In this document: piece by piece, positions 25,579 through 27,131 of the stretch
Position numbering within the stretch: the first letter of the stretch is position 1
How the letters are laid out: each line of letters opens with the position of its first letter
NCBI GenBank assembly: GCA_902574355.1
Contig: CACGNN010000002.1
Span: 1 to 64,000, forward strand
Direction of reading: 5' to 3'
Length of the DNA stretch: 64,000 bases
DNA from: an uncultured SAR86 cluster bacterium
Lineage (GTDB): Bacteria > Pseudomonadota > Gammaproteobacteria > Magnimaribacterales > Magnimaribacteraceae
The notes under the pieces: generated by a model
What the model was told of the DNA's origin: nothing
Database searches by the model: none
Seen by the model: the letters and a program-made list of their open reading frames with translations, nothing else
Position numbers and translations under genes: made by a program

Positions 25579-27131
<1,553 letters not shown>

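Follow-up and report, generated by a model that had tools for sequence, protein, structure and literature searches.

The helix 14 stem of the 16S rRNA has been rewritten in part of SAR86, a widespread marine group, and we consider it highly probable (roughly 0.88) that this is the result of clade-specific compensatory evolution, in which other Watson-Crick pairs took the place of the two middle ones of the stem and the element that makes the contact in intersubunit bridge B8 was kept. The variant was found in a stretch of 64,000 nucleotides, referred to here as the window, whose 16S gene and genome both fall among named SAR86 records. The 16S gene gives a full-length match to the Rfam family RF00177, with a score above the gathering score. 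The altered site, ACATCTACGGATGGCAGC, corresponds to E. coli 16S positions 338-355 and lies at 25925-25942 on the forward strand; it is the sole match in the window at two or fewer mismatches, and 100 shuffles gave no match. The features of the operon are as follows.

24186..25376, forward strand: tyrosine--tRNA ligase-like (tyrS-like) gene, upstream of and adjoining the operon (Pfam PF00579 and S4)
25579..27131, forward strand: 16S rRNA gene (Rfam RF00177, model 1-1533, 1555.3 bits)
25749..25749, forward strand: A160 of helix 8, which docks on C342-G347 in bridge B8; conserved
25925..25942, forward strand: EUB338 / 338F site (E. coli 338-355), variant 3A4T11A12T
25926..25929, forward strand: 5' strand of helix 14, CAUC, E. 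coli 339-342; changed at 25927 (340) and 25928 (341)
25930..25933, forward strand: loop of helix 14, UACG, E. coli 343-346; unchanged
25934..25937, forward strand: 3' strand of helix 14, GAUG, E. coli 347-350; changed at 25935 (348) and 25936 (349)
27422..30320, forward strand: 23S rRNA gene of the same operon as the 16S gene (Rfam RF02541, model 1-2925, 2889.3 bits)
30384..30498, forward strand: 5S rRNA gene of the same operon as the 16S gene (Rfam RF00001, 79.7 bits)

ARAGORN found no tRNA gene in the 16S-23S spacer (27132-27421) or in the whole 64 kb window.

Aligning the Rfam consensus structure to E. coli rrsH gave 455 base pairs in total. Because these include 339-350, 340-349, 341-348 and 342-347, the numbering and pairing given in the preliminary description were right: in the window, pair 340-349 has changed from U-A to A-U and pair 341-348 from C-G to U-A, that is, two compensated pairs and four substitutions, and the outer pair 339-350 is untouched. 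The window gene is thus a compensated helix 14 variant, substituted at 340, 341, 348 and 349 with standard pairs throughout. The accompanying claim, that the four substitutions keep all pairs, holds beyond the window as well, in that all four helix 14 pairs are standard in 57 of 57 SAR86 16S genes (7 of them partial). Across these genes pair 340-349 is U-A in 34, A-U in 19 and G-C in 4, and pair 341-348 is U-A in 30 and C-G in 27.

The distribution of these states follows lineages within the order. A survey with a pattern left free at positions 340, 341, 348 and 349 matched 130 of 203 SAR86-order genomes, and none of the matched sites was unpaired. The state of the window, AUC/GAU, was identical in 19 genomes from two genera of a single SAR86 family (f1), namely the window's own genus g1 (15 of 19 genomes, the rest without a pattern match) and genus g4 (4 of 6, the rest likewise without a match); every genome of these genera with a readable site carries both pair changes, always compensated. 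Genus g2 has GUC/GAC (3 of 4 genomes by pattern, 4 of 4 genes by alignment), genus g5 has UUC/GAA (2 of 3 genomes by pattern, 2 of 2 genes), and genera g6 and g7 of family f1 have the standard helix (1 of 1 genome each); the one genome of g3 did not match the survey pattern. The remaining 104 pattern matches, all in families f2 and f3, are standard, and the aligned genes with a standard helix come from g6 (1), g7 (1), f2 (11) and f3 (14). In family f4 none of 21 genomes matched, since the pattern excludes the flank CGGAC that the five aligned f4 genes carry; all five read UUC/GAA, as does a sixth f4 genome according to pattern scans. A search of 84,980 species genomes for a 25-mer, CCCAGACATCTACGGATGGCAGCAG, which detects the exact flanking context only, gave 17 records, 16 titled SAR86 cluster and one titled Gammaproteobacteria MED-G142; these records belong to g1 and g4 genomes and are not independent of the order survey. 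Many of them bear AG- or AH-numbers, which we take to denote single-amplified genomes, and some titles say MAG.

Helix 14 belongs to a wider pattern, in that 73 of the 455 pairs differ between g1 and the f2/f3 majority, 39 of them changed on both sides with pairing kept and 8 having lost standard pairing. We also compared SAR86 with a small and uneven panel of 27 other 16S genes of the phylum (16S was found in 28 of 110 genomes, with at most three candidates scored in each). Pair 340-349 is one of only 5 among 271 panel-conserved pairs that have at least three Watson-Crick types in SAR86, the other four being 52-359, 501-544, 680-710 and 1087-1098.

Might the variant be an artefact, or a stray copy of the gene? 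That the sequence was misread or misassembled, or that the rrn operon is a chimera, is exceedingly improbable. First, 19 genomes agree, including the one-contig genome G005. Second, the tyrS-like flank is common to 17 of 17 loci with the 25-mer (tblastn; 3 of the matches are partial). Third, four substitutions that pair with one another are not expected from error. Many of these 17 loci are truncated, and the gene on the downstream side of the operon (30525-31355) was recovered in 6 of them. Almost as improbable is a divergent second copy, or a decaying one, lying beside a normal rRNA gene. The host genome of the window (1.44 Mb, 90.5% complete, in 34 contigs) is incomplete enough that such a copy could be unassembled, but all 14 candidates in it were scored and yielded one 16S match, which is full-length and has the key loop letters intact; moreover, the 13 g1 genomes with a match had one each, and the single-contig G005 showed a single 16S (at most three candidates scored per genome). 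The preliminary description had read the change as genuinely evolved, and this reading is borne out by the 19 identical genomes, the paired alternatives in sister genera, the single 16S copy and the shared flank.

How often has the stem changed? A maximum-likelihood 16S tree from which positions 335-353 were left out implies four changes of helix 14 state, with three changes at pair 341-348 and two at 340-349, and a 23S tree likewise implies four, with three at 341-348. Grouping f4 with the changed f1 genera was rejected (p 2.4e-76, 16S), as was a single clade of f1 and f4 (p 1.3e-4 for 16S; p 6.8e-83 for 23S, without g7). A single clade of the changed f1 genera was not rejected (p 0.105 for 16S, 0.135 for 23S), and the number of origins within family f1 is uncertain. 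These tests indicate at least two separate changes of pair 341-348 to U-A in SAR86, one in f1 and one in f4; the second family arrived at UUC/GAA independently, and within f1 the original pair at 340-349 gave way to two different ones. We infer that 341-348 would have passed from C-G to U-A first, and that a second step at 340-349 would then have led from U-A to A-U in g1 and g4, or to G-C in g2. Contrary to the 16S tree, the 23S tree places g5 (G027) inside g1, beside G004 and G016. The 23S genes of G004, G016 and G027 (L081, L088 and L109; 2910, 2916 and 2928 bases) are 11 to 29 bases longer than that of the window (2899 bases), and some other 23S genes are also longer. We suspect a shared insert, recombination or an alignment effect behind this placement, and the position of g5 was not taken from the 23S tree, in which the row of G058 is only 39% filled.

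Outside SAR86, a pattern demanding a base other than C at 341 and other than G at 348 was run on 339 Gammaproteobacteria genomes, 4 of them SAR86. It gave only two matches, both SAR86, and none in the 335 others, a count that does not allow for the share with an assembled 16S gene; the pattern requires RGAC 5' of the stem, and 3 of the 27 panel genes read AAAC or GAAC, so that some genomes were missed. Among 299 genomes of the phylum, with the share of assembled 16S genes again not counted, AUC/GAU or GUC/GAC occurred in the window's genome only, and the viral contigs searched held no match to the site. The double change, at both middle pairs, was thus seen only in SAR86 among the genomes scanned. 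The panel has U-A at 340-349 in 27 of 27 genes, C-G at 341-348 in 23 of 27 and UUC/GAA in 4 of 27. These four genes all come from one family of another class, f191 (G583, G586, G592 and G605; L206, L185, L192 and L184), where they make up 4 of 6 genes, and they have the same helix 14 state as SAR86 f4 and g5. The single-pair change therefore recurs beyond SAR86, and we rejected the idea that it is unique to the group, both on these four panel genes and on the published 4T11A variant (PMC3445835).

In the 338F notation of PMC3445835, the window is 3A4T11A12T and g2 is 3G4T11A12C. The main text of that paper describes the variants 338F-3A12T, 338F-4T11A (various phyla) and 338F-3C4T11A12G (Cyanobacteria), and each of these resembles the window in part. 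The 338F-3A12T type, which is the EUB338-III target of Verrucomicrobia (PMC3445835, PMC8944128), shares the compensated A-U at 340-349 but retains C-G at 341-348, where the window has U-A. The 338F-4T11A type, the state of g5 and f4, shares the change from C-G to U-A at 341-348, whereas 340-349, changed in the window, is left as it was. The cyanobacterial type shares the double compensation of the middle pairs by four substitutions, but its 340-349 has become C-G rather than A-U. Thus, the description of the site as near-universal is only approximate, given that compensated variants of one and of two pairs have been published from other phyla (PMC3445835), and the principle that compensated helix 14 variants evade EUB338 is already established. 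Neither 3A4T11A12T nor 3G4T11A12C appears in the main text of PMC3445835, whose supplementary variant tables may hold them, and text searches (for the exact letters, for SAR86 with an EUB338, 338F or 341F mismatch, and for EUB338 with helix 14) returned no paper that reports the variant in its title or the opening of its abstract; the exact letters matched only an unrelated piggyBac paper. By these searches, 3A4T11A12T is a combination without printed precedent within a known kind of variant; it marks a clear clade and has a graded series of relatives.

These changes matter for probe design and marine surveys. Among the probe and primer sequences compared, those of EUB338 I-III agree with PMC8944128, that of 338F with PMC3445835, and those of 341F and 805R with PMC11310772. 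Against the window, EUB338-I, -II, -III and -IV have 4, 3, 2 and 5 mismatches, respectively, and primers 338F, 341F, 1100R and 1492R have 4, 2, 1 and 1; 27F, 805R, 907R and 1392R have none, nor do 515F, 806R and 926R, which match in full. Every member of EUB338 I-III has at least two mismatches to the window's genera; the I/II/III counts are 4/5/4 for g2 and 2/5/4 for g5 and f4, and in two SAR86 families there are helix 14 sites that differ from EUB338-I by 2 to 4 mismatches. Read by eye, two of the mismatches of 338R fall on its third and fourth bases counted from the 3' end, and primer w49dir differs from the window at 4 bases, one of them the 3' terminal base. According to PMC4781884, w49dir served for fingerprints in a study covering SAR86, and SAR11 and SAR86 together accounted for over 70% of the sequences from surface waters of the South Pacific gyre. 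The preliminary description had predicted that cells with this rRNA would be missed by EUB338-type probes and by amplicon primers at position 338. The mismatch counts for EUB338 I-III and 338F support this prediction, but the wording is too strong for 341F, whose two mismatches are both away from the 3' terminal base. Judging from the mismatch counts, FISH cell counts and surveys with 338F, 338R or 341F may undercount these SAR86.

As described in PMC6379664, helices 8 and 14 touch, contact L14 and L19 and form intersubunit bridge B8, and G347, C342 and A160 form a base triple that G347U breaks, causing miscoding. The 16S ram mutations in helix 14, such as G347U (PMC6379664), thus fall in the same helix as the change in the window; however, G347U disrupts both the C342-G347-A160 triple and bridge B8, whereas the window keeps the letters of the triple. 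The sequence CUACGG at 342-347, comprising the UACG loop and the closing pair C342-G347, was found in all 57 SAR86 genes and, in the panel, in 26 of 27; A160 is A in every gene of both sets (57 of 57 and 27 of 27). Because the loop, C342-G347 and A160 are invariant in SAR86, the bases of the element that builds B8 have been kept in every one of these genes. A compensated stem around a conserved contact element fits compensatory drift. To form B8 with L14 and L19, helix 14 would have to keep its shape and loop together with the C342-G347/A160 triple, and the middle letters of the stem, presumably read only as pairs, would be free to drift by compensation. The 16S gene would then be functional and the ribosome should work normally, whereas probes and primers that read the letters would weaken or fail. 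The natural states of helix 14 in SAR86 set apart the features that it seems to require (shape, loop and closing pair) from those that it seems able to do without (the middle stem letters).

The calculated energy of the hairpin is -5.0 kcal/mol for the standard stem, -4.2 for g2, -2.8 for g1 and g4, and -2.6 for g5 and f4; two half-compensated 12-mers gave no fold by the same calculation. Since calculated stability falls from -5.0 to -2.8 kcal/mol, the change is not necessarily without effect, and the fact that all three changed stems are calculated to be weaker (g2 only slightly), together with a turnover at 340-349 above that of most such pairs, may argue against pure neutrality. We therefore considered whether the change might be adaptive, in that a weaker helix 14 would loosen B8 and shift decoding speed or accuracy in these small-genome ocean bacteria, with L14, L19 or helix 34 (C1192G) changing alongside. 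Besides the weaker hairpin, lesions in helices 14 and 8 are known miscoding mutations (PMC6379664), and L14 has six columns specific to g1, g2, g4 and g5. Nevertheless, we regard this explanation as unlikely. The B8 contact letters and A160 are unchanged; g2, with G-C at 340-349, has a stem of nearly standard strength; f4 has UUC/GAA with neither C1192G nor those L14 residues; and signals shared within f1 may follow descent alone.

Co-change of L14 or L19 (found in 30 and 27 of 33 genomes, respectively) with helix 14 was rejected, as neither protein has a column that sets every changed SAR86 lineage apart from every standard one. A single column in each protein is specific to g1 and g4. With no L14 row for g6, the contrast for L14 within f1 rests on one standard genome, that of g7. 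A separate feature of L19 concerns family f2, in which three of the four genomes with a match (G038, G047 and G053) have long frames of 315, 271 and 174 aa (L158, L155 and L160), compared with 116 to 138 aa in other SAR86. An acidic, Ala/Glu-rich stretch precedes the L19 part in these frames, whose lengths are those of the open frames.

Position 1192 in helix 34 (window 26781) is G instead of C, opposite an unchanged G1064, and pair 1064-1192 becomes G-G. Among the genes covering this position, G1192 was found in 13 of 13 from g1, 4 of 4 from g4, and the single genes of g2 and g5, and C1192 in g6 (1), f4 (5), f2 (11), f3 (14) and 20 of 20 readable genes of the 27-gene panel. Within f1, C1192G is accordingly present in the genera with a changed helix 14 and absent from the unchanged g6, a point that favors adaptive retuning and could reflect a linked functional shift; this sharing would also fit the changed f1 genera as one clade, with two origins, not three. 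We consider C1192G more surprising than the helix 14 change itself. The 1064-1192 pair is the classical spectinomycin site (PMC13361928), and natural insensitivity to the drug is predicted from the base change. It is conceivable, though improbable, that a single SAR86 lineage with shifted decoding is involved, in which a weaker helix 14 (B8) and the rare C1192G co-evolved, bringing altered A-site selection or translocation and natural spectinomycin insensitivity.

Of 824 positions that do not vary across the panel, E. coli, f2 and f3, 8 are changed in the g1 majority; these include 340, 349 and 1192, and the others are 360 (G to A), 601, the compensated pair 940-1343 (C-G to U-A) and 995 (C to A).
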